Assembly: GCA_016874935.1 (NCBI GenBank)
Contig: VGSS01000016.1
Span: 1-37,142 of the forward strand
Source: Deltaproteobacteria bacterium
GTDB taxonomy: Bacteria; Desulfobacterota; BSN033; UBA1163
DNA length: 37,142 nt
Direction: 5' to 3'
The first letter of the stretch is position 1. Every line of letters starts with the position of its first letter. The position numbers and the translations under genes were made by a program. Below the pieces are notes generated by a model that was not told the origin of the DNA, did not search any database, and was given only the letters and a program-made list of their open reading frames with translations. Shown here piece after piece: positions 4,570 to 32,620 of this stretch.

Positions 4570-4616
4570 TCTGCGGTTCAAGAGCAGTCTCAAAATTGAG
4601 TAGACATGACCATTGG

Positions 4617-4827
4617 AAAATCTCCCCTCCCCCCTGGTTTGCCAAAGAGGGGTAATTCCTCCCTTGGAGACTGTGTCGTAATTCCGTTCATGGTTCGAGA
4701 GCCTCACCACGAACGGAAAACGGCATGTTAAAAATCAACTACTTAGCCGTTCGCCCTGAGCATGTCGAAGGGTGAACGGGGAATTGTGACACAGCCTCTT
4801 TGGCAAAGGGAGGCCAGGAGGGATTTT
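4617..4827. mobile_element. MITE-like palindromic element A
   Basis: A 211-bp non-coding element. Its ends are inverted: AAAATCTCCCCTCC, then GGTTTGCCAAAGAGG at 4617-4650, against CCTCTTTGGCAAAGGGAGG, then AGGGATTTT at 4795-4827. An inner inverted pair (AGACTGTGTCGTAATTCC, 4668-4685; its partner at 4780-4797) matches 15 of 18 positions and is shared with element B at 11431-11610. Inside are two palindromes, CCGTTCATGG...GAACGG (4684-4716) and CCGTTCGCCCTGAG...GAACGG (4748-4780), the latter recurring at 33846-33878. There is no reading frame of its own, so it would need a transposase elsewhere. Confidence 0.65.
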
Positions 4828-4867
4828 AAAAATCGATGTCATTACCCTTTTAAGGTTGTCAATATAT

Positions 4868-5314
4868 ATGGATACAGGAGCAAAGGCCAAAAAGAAGAAA
4901 AAACGTTTTGAAATCCTGGACCACACGGCAGATATAGGGTTGATCGTGTATGGCGAGGACCTCAAGACGCTTTTTGAGAATGCGGCTGAAGCCTTCTTTC
5001 AGCTCATAACCGACTTGAAGAGGGTGAGGCAGAAGGAAGAAAGGAAGGTTGAACTACAAGGAGAAAGTCTGGAACGGTTGATGGTCGACTGGTTAAATGA
5101 ACTTCTCTATCTCCGCGATGTGGAGAATCTATTGTTTAAAAAATTTGAGGTAACAGTGGTTGGAGAGGAAGGATTGAAAGCAAAAGTTAAAGGAGAGGTT
5201 TTTAAAACAGGGGTCCATGTGATCAAAACTGGGGTAAAGGCAGTGACCCACCATCAGATTCAAGTAAAAAGAGAGGACGGAGGTTGGAAAGCACAGGTTA
5301 TCCTGGATCTATAA
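4868..5314 (+). CDS. Archease, RtcB activator
   Basis: A 148-residue archease (SHS2 fold). The hallmark RFEILDHTADIGL, with the conserved Asp of the metal site, lies at about 14-26. It is followed by LFENAAEAFFQLITDL, RLMVDWLNELLYLRD, and the C-terminal VHVIKTGVKAVTHHQIQVKR and ending LDL. Archease speeds guanylation of RtcB and enables multiple turnover. The gene lies 33 nt upstream of rtcB, so the pair forms a functional operon. The in-frame TTG at 4856 would leave no spacing from the only AAGG, so the ATG at 4868 is preferred, though the ribosome site is poor either way. Confidence 0.88.
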   Translation: MDTGAKAKKKKKRFEILDHTADIGLIVYGEDLKTLFENAAEAFFQLITDLKRVRQKEERKVELQGESLERLMVDWLNELLYLRDVENLLFKKFEVTVVGEEGLKAKVKGEVFKTGVHVIKTGVKAVTHHQIQVKREDGGWKAQVILDL

Positions 5315-5347: not shown

Positions 5348-6802
5348 ATGACATCAGAAAATAAGATTAAGATTCAGAAGATAGACGATTACCGCTGGAG
5401 AATCCCTCGCGAGGGGAAGATGAAAACCGATGGGATCATCTATGCCGATGAACGGATGTTTGCGGATATCCGAAAAGATCAGAGCCTCGCCCAAGTGGCC
5501 AATGTCGCCTGGCTTCCGGGCATCATGGGCCAATCCCTGGCAATGCCGGATATCCACTGGGGGTATGGTTTTCCCATTGGCGGTGTGGCTGCCTTCGATT
5601 TGAATGATGGGATCGTCTCTCCGGGAGGGGTCGGGTATGATATCAACTGAGGCGTCAGGCTGATGCGCTCAGGTCTGAGCCGCAAGGACATTCAGGGAAG
5701 GATGAAGGATCTGGTGGATGGACTTTTCATCAACATCCCCTCGGGTGTGGGTTCCCATCGAAAAGACCTGAAGCTGAATAGAGAGGAGCAAAGGCAGGTT
5801 CTGAAAAAAGGGGCGAGGTGGGCAGTTGAGAGGGGTTTCGGCACAGCAGAGGATATCGAACATATCGAAGAACTGGGTTGCATCGAAGGGGCTGATCCGG
5901 ACAGTGTCTCAGAGAAGGCGATGGAAAGAGGGAAAGGACAGCTGGGCACACTCGGTTCAGGGAATCACTTCGTTGAGGTGGGCTATGTGGCCGAAGTATT
6001 TGATGAGGACATTGCCCGGGTATTGGGTTTATGGAAAGATCAGGTGACTGTCCTCGTCCATACAGGGTCAAGGGGTTTTGGACACCAGGTGTGCGATGAT
6101 TATATACGTGTGATGATGAATGCCGCCCGGAAGTATCAGATTGAACTTCCGGATCCTCAACTCTGCTGCGCTCCGGTCTCTTCCCCGGAGGGAGAGCGAT
6201 ATCTAGAAGCAATGGCCTGTGCGGCGAACTATGCCTTCACGAACCGGCAGATGATTTCCCACTGGGTGCGGGAAACATTCGAACAGGTCCTTAAGAAGAG
6301 GCCAAGGGATCTTCAACTCGATTTGGTCTACGATGTCTGTCATAATATTGCAAAGGTCGAAACGCATACGGTCAACGGGGAGAAAAAGAAACTCTGTGTC
6401 CATAGAAAGGGAGCGACCCGAGCCTTTCCTCCAAACCATCGGGATATTCCGGAAGATTACCGGTCCATCGGCCAGCCTGTCCTCATCCCTGGTGACATGG
6501 GCAGGTGTTCCTATGTTTTGATCGGGACGGAAAAGGCGATGAAAGAGACTTTTGGCTCCACCTGTCACGGAGCAGGAAGGGTGATGAGCCGCCATCAGGC
6601 CATCAAGATGGCAAAGGGAAGGGCGGTTGTGAGGGAGATGGAGGATAAGGGGATCATCGTGAGGGGAGCAAGCCGGGGGACGATAGAGGAAGAGATTCCT
6701 GAGGCCTATAAAGATGTCAATGATGTGGTGAATGTGGTTCACCATGCAGGCATCAGCCTGAAAGTGGCCAAACTGGTGCCGATGGGAGTGATCAAAGGAT
6801 AG
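5348..6802 (+). CDS. rtcB: RtcB RNA ligase, predicted selenoprotein (in-frame UGA = Sec101)
   Basis: RtcB joins RNA 2',3'-cyclic phosphate or 3'-phosphate ends to 5'-OH ends, using GTP and Mn2+. Reading through the TGA at 5648-5650 gives one 484-residue protein, the normal RtcB length (Pyrococcus horikoshii about 481). The TGA replaces the Cys of GVGYDIN-C-GVRL, the conserved metal ligand (Cys98 in Pyrococcus). All other key residues are present: Asp98, Asn206-His207 (GSGNHFVEV), His238 ([12 protein letters not shown]), His332 ([10 protein letters not shown]), the guanylylated His407 (CHGAGR) and the C-terminal Lys483. Offsets from the Pyrococcus numbers stay at 3-4 throughout. A SECIS-like hairpin lies 21 nt after the TGA. 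GGGAG precedes the ATG. The alternative is a nonsense mutation or sequencing error. Confidence 0.85.
5664..5684 (+). promoter_or_regulatory. Predicted bacterial SECIS element in rtcB
   Basis: RNA stem-loop inside the coding region. UGCG (5664-5667) pairs with CGCA (5681-5684), and CUCA (5668-5671) pairs with UGAG (5676-5679). C5680 is bulged and the apical loop is GGUC (5672-5675). The loop begins 21 nt after the UGA, within the usual bacterial range. The loop and closing sequence CAGGUCUG are the same as in the E. coli fdhF SECIS, where the loop Gs and a bulged base contact SelB; there the bulge is on the 5' side, here on the 3' side. Confidence 0.78.
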
Positions 6803-6890
6803 GGTTCAAGGGACCAAGGGTTCCAGGGTTCAAGTGAGAATCTCAAATGAAAAAACCTTGAATCCTTGAACCCTTGAATCCTTGAACCCT
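6801..6890. repeat. Long inverted repeat of octamer words after rtcB
   Basis: Two 34-nt arms (6801-6834 and 6857-6890) match in inverted orientation at 29 of 34 positions, around a 22-nt loop. The right arm is four alternating octamers (CTTGAATC, CTTGAACC, CTTGAATC, CTTGAACC). The left arm starts in the rtcB stop codon. The hairpin could stabilise or end the archease-rtcB message, but no T-run follows. Confidence 0.7.
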
Positions 6891-6903
6891 GATTGTACAA
6901 AAA

Positions 6904-7950
6904 ATGAAGATACTGGCGATTGATATTGGGGCAGGGACACAGGACATTCTCCTTTTCGATTCCGAGAAGAAGATCGAAAATTGCACCAGCCTCGTTCTGC
7001 CAACACCATCGAAAATCCTTGCTGAAAAATTAAAAAAAATAGATGGCAATCTCTATGTGTGCGGGGACACGATCGGAGGGGGATCGCTTTCACGGGCTAT
7101 TCTACGCCACCTCAAGAAGGGTTATCGAGTGTCGATGGAGGAATCCGCCGCCTATTCGATTCGGAATAATTTAGATGAGGTCAGATCTATGGGGATCGAA
7201 GTGGGAAGTAATCCTTCCCCCGGCCATTTTCAGGAATTGGAAATCTGTGAGATCGATCTGCCACTGCTTCGCCAATTCCTTACCCAATTCGGAGAGGATT
7301 TTAACTTTGATGTCATCTCAGTAGCCGTTCAGGACCACGGCGTGGCTCCAAAAGGGGTTTCAGACCGGACGTTCCGTTTCGAAAAGATGGAGGAAATGCT
7401 ACGAAAAGATAACAGGCCCGAGTCATTTCACTTCACAGAAGATTCCATCCCGGACTATTATCTCCGGATGAAATCAGCAGTAAAAGCGGTGAGGAGAACC
7501 TTCTCATCTCCTATCGTGGTTATGGACACTGCCTTCTCCGCCATATCAGGTTGTTTGGACGAAGCAGAAGGGCCGTCTCTGATCGTCAATGCAGGAAACG
7601 GACATACCATTGCCGCCCTCCTGATCAATAGAAAGATTGAAGGGCTCTATGAACACCATACCCATGAGTTGACTCCGGAGAAATTGGAGAATCACCTTCG
7701 CCTCTTCGTTCGGGGTGAATTGAACAGGCAGAAGGTCTTTGAAGATAATGGCCATGGAGTCATCACATTGGCTCCGTTTTTCGGAGAGATATCCATACGG
7801 GTCACCGGCCCCAACCGCGACCTCTTCAACGGAACGTCCCTCCAATTTACTTATGCTGCTCCGGCCGAGAATACCATGATGACCGGCCCGATGGGACTGA
7901 TCAAAGCGGCCCTTTATAGATTCCAGAAAGCAGGAAGCAGTGGGCAGTAG
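6904..7950 (+). CDS. DUF1786 family protein (ASKHA-like N-terminus)
   Basis: A 348-residue protein beginning MKILAIDIGAGTQDILLFDS, the characteristic start of DUF1786 proteins, which are sometimes named putative pyruvate formate-lyase activating proteins. The start resembles the phosphate-1 motif of the actin/HSP70/sugar kinase (ASKHA) fold, and LIVNAGNGHTIAALLINR at about 223-240 resembles a second phosphate motif. No radical-SAM CxxxCxxC is visible, so the activating-enzyme name is not supported by the sequence. Role unknown; nucleotide binding is inference. No clear ribosome site precedes the ATG. It follows rtcB across the long inverted repeat. Confidence 0.7.
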   Translation: MKILAIDIGAGTQDILLFDSEKKIENCTSLVLPTPSKILAEKLKKIDGNLYVCGDTIGGGSLSRAILRHLKKGYRVSMEESAAYSIRNNLDEVRSMGIEVGSNPSPGHFQELEICEIDLPLLRQFLTQFGEDFNFDVISVAVQDHGVAPKGVSDRTFRFEKMEEMLRKDNRPESFHFTEDSIPDYYLRMKSAVKAVRRTFSSPIVVMDTAFSAISGCLDEAEGPSLIVNAGNGHTIAALLINRKIEGLYEHHTHELTPEKLENHLRLFVRGELNRQKVFEDNGHGVITLAPFFGEISIRVTGPNRDLFNGTSLQFTYAAPAENTMMTGPMGLIKAALYRFQKAGSSGQ

Positions 7951-20257: not shown

Positions 20258-21547
20258 ATGATGGATTTTAAAGAACGTCTTCGACAACTTTCCTCTATAT
20301 CCAAAACTCCTACCGCCTCAATCGAGAGTGAGGAAGGGGGAGACCTGAGGGGGCGTCTTGATCGTCTTCTCCGGCCGGAGAAGGTCCATCGAAAGCGAGA
20401 ACTCTTTCCCATCGACAAACTGGTTGACGGAAAAGTCGTCTCCACGCCTGAAGGGGAGACCTTCCAGACAGAGGAGCATTTCCCCTCTCACTTTCGGTAC
20501 GGAGAGATGACCCTGACCGAGATCCGCGACATCCCCACTTATCCAGCTCATCTCCTCTTGAGAGACGACCGGTTGAAGGAGCTCGATTTCAGGAAGGCCC
20601 TCTTTCTTGACACGGAGACGACCGGCCTTTCGGGCGGCACCGGCACCTTTGCCTTTATGGTGGGACTGGGGTTCTTTCAGGGAGATGGGTTTGTCGTCCA
20701 CCAGCTCTTCATGAGAGACTATTCAGAGGAGAGAGCTTCCCTTTCCATTCTGCAGGAGATCCTCGATTCCTTTCAGTTCCTGGTCACTTTCAATGGCAGG
20801 CATTATGACATTCCGCTCCTCGAAACTCGATTCATCCTCTCGCGGAAGCGTTCAAAGATCAAGGAGATGCCCAACTTCGACCTCCTCTATCCATCGCGAA
20901 AGATCTGGAAAGGGGCTTATGAGAACTGCCGTCTGGTCACACTGGAATCCAGGCTCCTTGGAATGGAGAGAGAGGATGATATTCCATCGGAGTGGATTCC
21001 CTCCCTCTATTTCGACTATATCCAGACGGGAGATGCGAGAAAGATCCACCGGGTCTTCTACCACAACCGGATGGATATCCTCACGATGGTGGCCCTGGCA
21101 GGAAGGATTCATCTCATTTATCATGATCCGCAGGCGGCACGGCCCAGGAAGGGAGTGGAACATTTTTCTCTCGGGAGGCTCTTCTGGGATCATGGAGATC
21201 GTCAGAAGGCGATCCCCTGCTTTGAGATTGCCCTGAAGCGTTGCAACGACGAGCTTGCCTGGGAGGTGATGAAGTGGCTCTCCATGGCTTTCAAAAAGAC
21301 TGGAGAGAATGAGAGGGCCCGATCCCTATGGGAGGAGATGATGAGCTGGCCCTATAGAAAGGATGCTTATCCCTACATTGAACTGGCAAAATATCATGAG
21401 CACCGGCTCAAGGAGTTTGAAAAGGCGATTGCCTATGTGGATCAGGCATTGGCCATGACCCTCTCCCATCGGGAGAGGGAGGTGGAACTTCTCCTGGAGA
21501 GGAAACAGAGATTGCTGAAGAAAAAGGTCGGAAATGAAGATCGATGA
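20258..21547 (+). CDS. mrfB: MrfB-like DEDDh exonuclease with TPR tail
   Basis: A 429-residue protein. The RNase H-like exonuclease core has its first acidic pair in FLDTETTGLSGGTGTFAF (about 116-133), a second motif in FNGRHYDIPLLETRF, and a final acidic motif in VFYHNRMDILTM (about 267-278). The C-terminal third has TPR-like helices (KAIPCFEIALKRCND, then YVDQALAMTLSHREREVEL). This is the architecture of B. subtilis MrfB (YprB), the nuclease partner of MrfA. The start is the ATG at 20258 (GGGA upstream; another ATG directly follows), not the in-frame TTG at 20252. Its end overlaps the decayed transporter by 14 nt. Confidence 0.8.
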   Translation: MMDFKERLRQLSSISKTPTASIESEEGGDLRGRLDRLLRPEKVHRKRELFPIDKLVDGKVVSTPEGETFQTEEHFPSHFRYGEMTLTEIRDIPTYPAHLLLRDDRLKELDFRKALFLDTETTGLSGGTGTFAFMVGLGFFQGDGFVVHQLFMRDYSEERASLSILQEILDSFQFLVTFNGRHYDIPLLETRFILSRKRSKIKEMPNFDLLYPSRKIWKGAYENCRLVTLESRLLGMEREDDIPSEWIPSLYFDYIQTGDARKIHRVFYHNRMDILTMVALAGRIHLIYHDPQAARPRKGVEHFSLGRLFWDHGDRQKAIPCFEIALKRCNDELAWEVMKWLSMAFKKTGENERARSLWEEMMSWPYRKDAYPYIELAKYHEHRLKEFEKAIAYVDQALAMTLSHREREVELLLERKQRLLKKKVGNEDR

Positions 21548-22018
21548 TCGGTTCCGATGGCTGATCTGGCTCTCTCTCGCTGAGATCGGCACAATGCTTG
21601 TCTTTAATAACTATTCCGCCCTCCTTCCCATCCTCCAGAAAGAATGGTCCCTCACCAATAGCGAAGCAGGCTGGATCTTCTCTTCCTATCAGATCGGTTA
21701 TGTCCTGGCAGTTGTCCTCCTCACCTCGATGACCGATTATATCAACACGAAATATATCTACCTTGTCACCTCTTTCTGGGCAGGGATCGCCCCATATGTG
21801 GGAGATGTTCGGGATGAGGGCATGGATCGTTGCTTTCGTCCATTGTCTTCGGATATGTATTGGATCTTACCAATCCAACTGATGCGTTGACTCGATTCGG
21901 ATATGTTCCCAATTGGGGCTGGGCGTTTGTGATTTTGGGTTTGGGCGGATTGATGGGCCCCCTGATCATCTGGAGGCTGAGGAAAGAAGTTTCCTATGGA
22001 ACCCCAAAATTCTCTTGA
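21534..22018 (+). pseudogene. Decayed MFS transporter with internal deletion and frameshift
   Basis: Two pieces of one major facilitator transporter. The first (21534 to about 21785) holds the start and helices 1-2 (RFRWLIWLSLAEIGTMLVFN, then SSYQIGYVLAVVLLTSMTDY). The second (about 21830-22018, different frame) holds a penultimate/last helix region and end (SSIVFGYVLDLTNPTDALTR, then WAFVILGLGGLMGPLIIWRL). Roughly 250 middle codons are missing and the frames no longer match. The loss looks like one internal deletion, not scattered decay; function is certainly lost. Confidence 0.75.
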
Positions 22019-30472: not shown

Positions 30473-32620
30473 GTGCCCCTTAAGCCAAATCCCATTCTTG
30501 AAAAAAAGCCCCCTGGAATTCCGGAGGGCCTTCCTCCGGAAGAGGTCGAGCGTCTACAGAAACTTCAGATCAAGCTCACCGACTTTGTCCTTCATCTCAT
30601 CCAGGCCTTCCTGAGGACAGGATATTATACGTCTGATCATCCTGAATCCAAAAAAGCAAAGGAAGGCCTCTACCAGAGGTTCAAAGAACTTTTTGAAGAA
30701 GAGGATGAACTGGCCTTTCTCGTGCGGGAGGAACAGGAGGGACAGGAGGTTTTTGTCGAGGGCGTTCTGCCCGAAGCGCAGAAATTGAGCAGGATGATGA
30801 TAAAAGGAATGGGGGAACTCTATGTCCCGAAATTTGCCAAATATATGGAGCGTAAAGACCTGATCAGTTTGACCCTCAAAAGCCGGATGAAACAGGGCGA
30901 ATTCAGCTCATTCGTAGATATCATGAGCGAACCCACCCTGGTGGACACCCGTCGCAAACAGGATCAGGACCGATTTGCGCAGGCCCTTTACAGCCGTGGA
31001 ATCTTTAACATCTCCTATATCTTCAATGAAGAATTCCTTGCCCTCGAACGGGAGATGCCCTGGAGGGCCCGGCTCACCCTCTCCCGGATGAGGAAGGACC
31101 TCCAGATGATTCCCCTCTTCCAGAAGATGATGGGACAGGACATCCAGCAGATCCAGACAAGCCTTCTCCGGGATGCCCTCCGGCCGATTCGTCAATCTGA
31201 CCTGCTCTGCGCCATTCTGCGAAATAGCGATCTTGCCACCACCTCCGAAGGTCTTGAGGAGATGATGGAGGACGAAATCGTTTCTTCCTTGAAGAAACAG
31301 TACCTTCTTAATACCTCTAAAATCTTTTTACGCGAACATCTTGACCTCAAGAAACTTCAGAAGCAGGATGGTTTTGAGAAAAAATCGGACCGTCTCGTGA
31401 AGAAGCTCTCCAGCCGCCTGAAAGAGGTTTCCACCGGGGAGACGGAAAACCTTCTCGAGGAATTTTTCAGGCATCAACTCATCGGCCTCGAAGACCTCCC
31501 CCCGGCCCTGAAAGATAAGATCCTTCTGGAGAGGTTGACCGACAAGTTTCTCAACTATACGGATCAGTTCTTTCAGCAACTCGAACAGGCCAGAGATAAG
31601 GAGGCCTTTCTCAACGTGGCCAGCTCCTTTATCAGGATGATTCCTGAACTGATCCATAGGGACCGTTATCCGGAGATTCTTCGGATATTTGAAGCCCTCA
31701 AGGGTTATTTTCACCAGAAGAGGATGTGGTCTCTTCTCGCAGGCCAGATCATCGAGGAGATCGGAACGGGTGCCATCCCCCAACTTCTTAAAGAAAAATT
31801 CCTTAAAGGGAAGAAAGAAGTCCGGGCCGCCGTTATTCCCCTTTTCGCCGCGCTTGAGATCGGGGCTATTCCTGTCCTCATCGATATTTTGAAATCGAGT
31901 GAGGATCAGTGGGTGAGGAAGAATGCCTGCGAAGCTCTGATTCAAATCGGACTGGTCGCCGCCGTCCATCTTCTGAAGGAACTCGAGCGACAGCAGACCT
32001 CTGTCGATACGACCTGTGATATTCTCAGGGTTCTTGGAGAGATCAAATCTCGCGAGTGGCAGGCCCCCCTGACGAAGATCGCAAAGAGCTTTGCCACCCA
32101 TGAACATTCCAGATTGAGGGAACAGGCCATTCACACCCTGTGCCAGGTCGGAGGCCCTGAGGGAGAGGAAATCTATCTTTCATCCCTGAATGATCCGGAC
32201 CTGGAGGTGAGAAAAAGAGCGGTCTGGTGCCTGGGCATGACCAAAAGCGCCCGGGGCATCGGAAAGATGGTCGAAATGCTCAAAGAACTATCCGACCCCC
32301 CCTCCCCGCAATCCGATAAACTCGAAACCCATATCTATCTCGCCTTTGGCCTTTCCGGAAATATTTCCATGGAGGGGAGGACCTCGGAGCAGATTCTCAT
32401 TGAGGTCCTGGAGAAAAGGGGGATCAAGGGATTACTGGGCTTTCTTCAGAAGAATCCCCTCACCGATGCCTCCCTTGCCGCAATTTGTGATACTCTGGGG
32501 AAGATCGGGACCGGGGAATCGGTGAAAGTTTTAACCCGATTTGAGAAATCTCAAAAAGGATCATTGGTTCCAAAAATTAGAGAGGCGATAAAAAAGATTG
32601 AAGACCGTATTCAAAAATAA
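30473..32620 (+). CDS. HEAT-repeat protein, function unknown
   Basis: A 715-residue soluble helical protein. The N-terminal 400 residues are helical and charged, with no family I recognise (QIKLTDFVLHLIQAFLRTGY, then YMERKDLISLTLKSRMKQGE). From about 430 to 700 there are HEAT repeats: GAIPVLIDILKSSEDQWVRK, then SRLREQAIHTLCQVGGPEGE and DPDLEVRKRAVWCLG. Such scaffolds usually bind proteins. No signal peptide. The GTG start at 30473 has a good AAGGAAAAGAG upstream. It is divergent from the ABC exporter, but a link is unproven. Confidence 0.72.
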   Translation: MPLKPNPILEKKPPGIPEGLPPEEVERLQKLQIKLTDFVLHLIQAFLRTGYYTSDHPESKKAKEGLYQRFKELFEEEDELAFLVREEQEGQEVFVEGVLPEAQKLSRMMIKGMGELYVPKFAKYMERKDLISLTLKSRMKQGEFSSFVDIMSEPTLVDTRRKQDQDRFAQALYSRGIFNISYIFNEEFLALEREMPWRARLTLSRMRKDLQMIPLFQKMMGQDIQQIQTSLLRDALRPIRQSDLLCAILRNSDLATTSEGLEEMMEDEIVSSLKKQYLLNTSKIFLREHLDLKKLQKQDGFEKKSDRLVKKLSSRLKEVSTGETENLLEEFFRHQLIGLEDLPPALKDKILLERLTDKFLNYTDQFFQQLEQARDKEAFLNVASSFIRMIPELIHRDRYPEILRIFEALKGYFHQKRMWSLLAGQIIEEIGTGAIPQLLKEKFLKGKKEVRAAVIPLFAALEIGAIPVLIDILKSSEDQWVRKNACEALIQIGLVAAVHLLKELERQQTSVDTTCDILRVLGEIKSREWQAPLTKIAKSFATHEHSRLREQAIHTLCQVGGPEGEEIYLSSLNDPDLEVRKRAVWCLGMTKSARGIGKMVEMLKELSDPPSPQSDKLETHIYLAFGLSGNISMEGRTSEQILIEVLEKRGIKGLLGFLQKNPLTDASLAAICDTLGKIGTGESVKVLTRFEKSQKGSLVPKIREAIKKIEDRIQK

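Follow-up and report, generated by a model that had tools for sequence, protein, structure and literature searches.

A predicted selenocysteine form of the RNA ligase RtcB, encoded beside archease in the Desulfobacterota

What is the meaning of a stop codon that lies inside an otherwise intact gene for an RNA ligase, at the position of its active-site cysteine? The question is raised by a gene in contig VGSS01000016.1 of a Deltaproteobacteria bacterium (GenBank assembly GCA_016874935.1), from which a stretch of 37,142 nucleotides, referred to here as the window, was analysed. RtcB joins RNA ends with GTP, and an earlier note, made from the letters of the window, had proposed that its rtcB gene specifies selenocysteine (Sec) at this position. 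We consider it very probable (roughly 0.95) that the locus encodes a natural selenoprotein form of this ligase, Sec-RtcB, which would constitute a new selenoprotein family encoded beside archease. We favour this reading because both sides of the UGA are conserved, because UGA and Cys exchange at this one site, because a hairpin is tied to the UGA and because Sec machinery is present.

The reading frame and its neighbourhood

The features needed here are the following.
4856..5314, forward strand: archease, the RtcB activating factor (PF01951, 157 bits), 33 nt upstream of rtcB
5348..6802, forward strand: rtcB, 484 codons followed by a TAG stop, reading through a single in-frame TGA
5648..5650, forward strand: predicted selenocysteine codon 101 (TGA), equivalent to Cys98 of Pyrococcus horikoshii RtcB (PhRtcB) and shared by 34 of 395 genomes

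When TGA is read as Sec, the only internal stop of the frame is codon 101, and residues 49-484 of the 484-residue product match the Pfam RtcB profile (PF01139) with 601 bits, against a cut-off of 27. The solved homologue 1uc2 matches at an E value of 6e-179 and places the residue in question: in the alignment with the PhRtcB chain (1uc2/4dwq), Cys98 lies opposite codon 101. Likewise, His207, His238, His332, His407 and Lys483 align with His203, His234, His329, His404 and Lys480 of PhRtcB, the offsets having been read by hand. Hence the metal-binding histidines and the guanylylated histidine of the family are in register, given the roles that we take these PhRtcB residues to have (metal-site histidines, guanylylation of His404, a C-terminal Lys). 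What is absent is the active-site Cys that normally marks the family, codon 101 being TGA; the window gene is, by its sequence, a Sec variant of the RtcB family and no ordinary member. The description in the earlier note, namely one TGA in an otherwise intact gene of 484 codons, its position on the Pyrococcus Cys98, the five further residues at offsets of 3-4 and an archease gene directly upstream, thus agrees with the alignments and profile matches in each of these respects.

An intein was considered separately and rejected, as the NCBIfam model for intein-containing RtcB gives 772 bits where 1150 are required, and there is no insert relative to 1uc2.

The portion of the gene 3′ of the TGA appears to be under purifying selection. 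Specifically, dN/dS values for this portion are 0.082, 0.092, 0.088, 0.064 and 0.047 between the window gene and the TGA-containing (Sec) genes L117, L118, L120, L119 and L022, respectively, and 0.030 against the Cys gene L158; the comparison with a sixth near Sec gene, L021, is saturated. No second RtcB match occurs in the draft genome of 3.05 Mb.

Other observations concern the surroundings of the locus. The next gene after rtcB (6904-7950) encodes a DUF1786 protein, and short repeated, partly inverted motifs are visible by eye in the gaps that follow rtcB (6803-6903) and precede archease (about 4570-4850). At 21534-21890, a 118-codon open reading frame matches just positions 2-75 of the 347-position MFS_1 profile and is possibly a truncated transporter gene. 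Further in-frame TGAs, each flanked on both sides by 80 or more open codons, occur at 1369, 16595 and 17818 on the forward strand and at 30910, 24229, 19812, 18987, 10947 and 4737 on the reverse strand; none is proposed as a Sec codon. Scans of the window by Rfam and for tRNAs gave no match.

Recurrence of the TGA form and its hairpin

The earlier note had suggested that RtcB homologues be searched for TGA at this codon, and such genes are readily found. Relatives were collected by a pattern-based search of species genomes, and among the best 80 of at least 582 stretches encoding one, codon 101 is TGA in 7 and Cys in 73. Among 395 genomes sampled evenly across the phylum, the TGA-form pattern matched 34 (22 of 245 genera), compared with 0 of 395 for a reversed-pattern control; judged by this control, the recurrence of the TGA form is not due to chance. 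The corresponding Cys-form (TGY) pattern matched 165 of the 395, and no genome had both forms where 14.2 would be expected (hypergeometric P = 3e-9, ignoring kinship; the two lists were compared by eye for the 34 TGA genomes). The 196 genomes that match neither pattern may be without RtcB or may have another motif. Furthermore, none of the seven TGA relatives tested has an RtcB match besides its TGA gene, and the same holds for the window genome, making eight of eight.

The gene comparison covers 145 RtcB readings: 80 from the relatives, 30 + 4 from loci hit by the TGA pattern, among which is the place of the window itself, 30 from loci hit by the TGY pattern and one from the window. The site is TGA in 42 and Cys in 103 of these, or 35 and 100 once identical copies are removed. 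No TGA reading has a further stop within the matched stretch, and the Cys readings have none at all. Of the 42 TGA readings, 38 run into a stop codon directly past the matched stretch (15 TAG, 14 TGA and 9 TAA), and because TGA terminates 14 of these 42 genes, UGA still means stop in these organisms.

Just downstream of the predicted Sec codon lies the fourth feature.
5664..5684, forward strand: SECIS-like hairpin, stem 5664-5671 with 5676-5684, loop GGUC at 5672-5675, one bulged C

The loop begins 21 nt past the UGA, and a similar loop is present in E. coli fdhF. At least six of the seven stem pairs can form in 33 of 35 TGA genes versus 10 of 100 Cys genes. Among the Sec genes the best register is bulged in 23, continuous in 8 and has a 5-nt loop in 4; the genes with the 5-nt loop have C-G in place of the innermost A-U, a partner strand displaced by one and, at amino acid +10, Glu or Val where Ser would otherwise stand. 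When compared with shuffles that keep the protein and the codon usage (p ≤ 0.05), the hairpin is better than expected in 27 of 35 Sec genes (window, p = 0.02) versus 8 of 100 Cys genes, with the remaining 8 Sec hairpins failing to beat their shuffles at 0.05; the same test at seven other segments of the Sec genes succeeds in 0-3 of 33-35. All 35 Sec genes use CGC for the Arg at +6, compared with 33 of the 67 Cys genes that have Arg there, the latter drawing on six codons, and codons +6 to +11 show little variation among Sec genes, with neighbours on either side that vary normally. The alignment columns that go with Sec are likewise in or beside the hairpin codons (residue 111 most strongly, then 109 and 106), with weaker differences at 432, 470, 55, 46, 212 and 139. 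In longer folds from the UGA onward the window favours a competing structure (z = -0.86), the 5′ part of which a ribosome standing on the UGA is assumed to cover. The window scan gave no Rfam match for the hairpin. Taken as a pattern of conservation, these observations indicate that selection acts for read-through of this UGA and for the hairpin.

The Cys relatives are informative in this light. In a quick tree of 132 proteins, made with the site masked and with two Sec and one Cys short rows omitted, all 33 Sec rows fall in one group of 78 that also holds 45 Cys rows, and the Sec/Cys label needs 10 changes, at least 7 of them forced by well-supported branches. Two Cys genes are nested among Sec genes and retain the full stem: L158, which belongs to the same family as the window gene, and L153, in family f12. 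These positions fit a loss of Sec, recent in the case of L158, that left the hairpin behind as a fossil. Whereas the earlier note would have counted close relatives with plain Cys and no conserved hairpin against its reading, we find a hairpin tied to the TGA form and one close Cys relative, L158, that still carries it. The tree as a whole suggests an old Sec form that was repeatedly lost to Cys. A tree-corrected test with seven independent pairs finds hairpin and Sec in agreement in about 3.7 of them and in opposition in 0.1; the direction is the expected one, but the events are too few (median p = 0.125).

The association with archease is also consistent across the Sec genes. Archease is present at the locus in 35 of 35 (directly upstream in 33), compared with 81 of 100 Cys loci (directly upstream in 75), the latter having flanks of differing length.

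Selenocysteine machinery and other ways to read the codon

Other contigs of this genome contain matches over the curated cut-offs for SelB (371 bits), SelA (626 bits) and SelD (388 bits), and the selD gene is in turn interrupted by an in-frame TGA, at the GUAAK motif, with a strong hairpin behind it. The earlier note had proposed looking for selA, selB, selC and selD; three are thus present, whereas selC, the gene for tRNA-Sec, was not found in this 206-contig, 90.9%-complete draft with the Rfam model or by BLAST with a relative's tRNA-Sec. A weak match (L110) contains no tRNA, and the best 8 of 13 tRNA-Sec-like Rfam matches are, according to ARAGORN, other tRNAs with normal anticodons, none of them for UGA. 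The likeliest reason is a gap in the draft. A tRNA-Sec with anticodon TCA is present in six of the seven TGA relatives, one of which (G002) is evidently the same as the same-genus genome G068, with an identical rtcB and the same selB place.

The presence of selB does not separate TGA genomes from others. Among 23 genomes it is over the cut-off in 6 of 7 with TGA versus 14 of 16 with Cys, and in the phylum, with genomes matched by hand, in 31 of 34 versus 322 of 361 (Fisher p = 1), because 353 of the 395 have selB and Sec users abound in the phylum. A selB over the cut-off is missing from three TGA genomes, G032, G136 and G309, and G032 evidently equals G003, which has tRNA-Sec.

As a side observation, three extra tRNA-Sec-like genes exceed the Rfam cut-off: L108 (G002 C36:25300-25389), L107 (G004 C38:5754-5845) and L109 (G005 C239:1908-1995). 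ARAGORN assigns L108 the anticodon GCA (Cys) and L109 TCA; L107 reads as GCA (Cys) in its sequence, and ARAGORN found no tRNA there. L108 and L109 each adjoin an additional selB, and a normal tRNA-Sec is encoded in their genomes as well; recoding of Cys codons by these extra genes is possible.

The missing tRNA-Sec invites the idea that UGA is read here as a standard amino acid (Cys, Trp or some other), through a suppressor tRNA or a change of code; UGA-reading Trp tRNAs in bacteria are reportedly the topic of PMC13092985. We consider this very unlikely. UGA stays a stop in these organisms, as the 14 of 42 TGA genes that terminate with it attest; Trp in particular is hard to reconcile with Cys at the site in 103 of 103 other relatives; the eight tRNA-Sec-like loci include no anticodon for UGA; and the hairpin and the Sec machinery would be left without a reason.

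It is also worth considering that the UGA is mainly a selenium-controlled stop that regulates the amount of RtcB, with Sec being chemically neutral. The Sec gene is the sole RtcB match in all eight genomes, so that Sec supply would set RtcB output, and, to judge from the repeated Sec/Cys changes on the tree, the enzyme seems to work with either residue. However, such an arrangement has a cost and no clear gain, and Sec lies exactly on the catalytic metal ligand; regulation in the absence of any useful Sec protein therefore strikes us as extremely improbable. A regulatory stop in the wider sense does not conflict with Sec insertion and is counted within the odds of Sec-RtcB. Lastly, the idea that the TGA is an assembly error or a disabling mutation of a pseudogene, although the window does come from a 206-contig draft, is contradicted by the same TGA in 35 distinct genes whose matched stretch is otherwise free of stops, by the purifying selection past it and by a genome with no second RtcB match, which exclude it for the family, save for the single base call of this assembly.

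Sec-RtcB, which had been put forward as a Cys-to-Sec exchange of the kind seen in selenoproteins, is supported by the recurrent TGA, the TGA-tied hairpin and the presence of SelA, SelB and SelD.

Predicted mechanism and relation to known systems

In bacteria the insertion of Sec is SelB-dependent. A SelB-type elongation factor carrying Sec-tRNA(Sec) would recognise the hairpin just 3′ of the UGA and put selenocysteine in at residue 101, giving the full 484-residue ligase; with selenium or SelB missing, translation would stop after 100 residues. A selenolate would then stand where other RtcBs have a conserved thiolate as ligand of the catalytic metal ions, and activation by archease would proceed as usual. 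We infer Sec insertion at codon 101, metal binding by Sec and some benefit from it, and the replacement of Cys by Sec may alter the chemistry of the metal site.

What that benefit is can be suggested only tentatively. According to the accessible text of PMC12263435, the equivalent residue of human RTCB, Cys122, coordinates a metal ion, is sensitive to oxidation and is guarded by PYROXD1, and in that of PMC13188914, the Sec of [NiFeSe] hydrogenase is credited with guarding Ni from over-oxidation. Because of these two precedents we lean, at somewhat less than even odds, toward reversible oxidation: an oxidised Sec can be re-reduced, which would shield the most oxidation-sensitive residue of RtcB. 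We give odds just as close to even to the wider idea that Sec is functionally superior at the RtcB metal site, through changed metal use or recovery from oxidation, so that RNA repair would be selenium-dependent in these organisms.

Compared with Cys-containing RtcB (P. horikoshii PH1602, PDB 1uc2/4dwq; human RTCB), the window gene shares the fold family, the in-register metal-site His, His404 and Lys, and the archease partner, and differs in having a Sec codon at Cys98 and a hairpin inside the coding sequence. It resembles [NiFeSe] hydrogenase and formate dehydrogenase, as these are described in the accessible parts of PMC13188914, in placing Sec at a catalytic metal, in UGA decoding by SelA, SelB and SelD and in the downstream hairpin; those are redox enzymes, unlike RtcB. 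The closest precedent is an engineered Pyrococcus RtcB with Sec98 (accessible text of PMC4150793), that is, with Sec at the same residue. However, that protein is artificial (UAG, EF-Tu system) and underwent spontaneous cleavage, whereas the form described here would be natural, with UGA, its own hairpin and occurrence in many species. Natural Sec-RtcB must escape such cleavage, or else the effect is peculiar to the Pyrococcus protein.

A 2026 inventory lists 119 prokaryotic selenoprotein families and subfamilies, most of the uncharacterised ones being expected to be redox proteins, and its Table 1, as far as accessible, contains neither RtcB nor an RNA ligase (PMC13188914). The word "ligase" has no occurrence in PMC13188914, PMC12013277 or PMC9312934, and a natural Sec-RtcB is not reported in the accessible portions of PMC4150793, PMC1586002, PMC12013277, PMC8318568, PMC9312934, PMC12263435 and PMC13188914; PMC8318568 does point to unconfirmed new Deltaproteobacteria selenoproteins in a supplementary table. 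Nor was one found in the main text of openly accessible papers pairing RtcB with selenocysteine or selenoprotein, and the earlier note likewise named no described Sec-containing RtcB. Automatic gene callers are likely to truncate such genes at the UGA. Sec-RtcB would be a known enzyme in a new form, produced by a known decoding system. To our knowledge, it would be the only known natural selenoenzyme of RNA ligation.

A direct comparison of Sec-RtcB with natural Cys relatives and with a Cys mutant of its own offers a natural experiment on the oxidation of the RtcB active-site Cys, a live question according to the accessible text of PMC12263435. If Sec is indeed superior at the metal site, Sec-RtcB would be a built-in counterpart to the protection of human RTCB by PYROXD1. 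An RNA ligase that binds its catalytic metal through Sec would carry the use of selenium into RNA repair.
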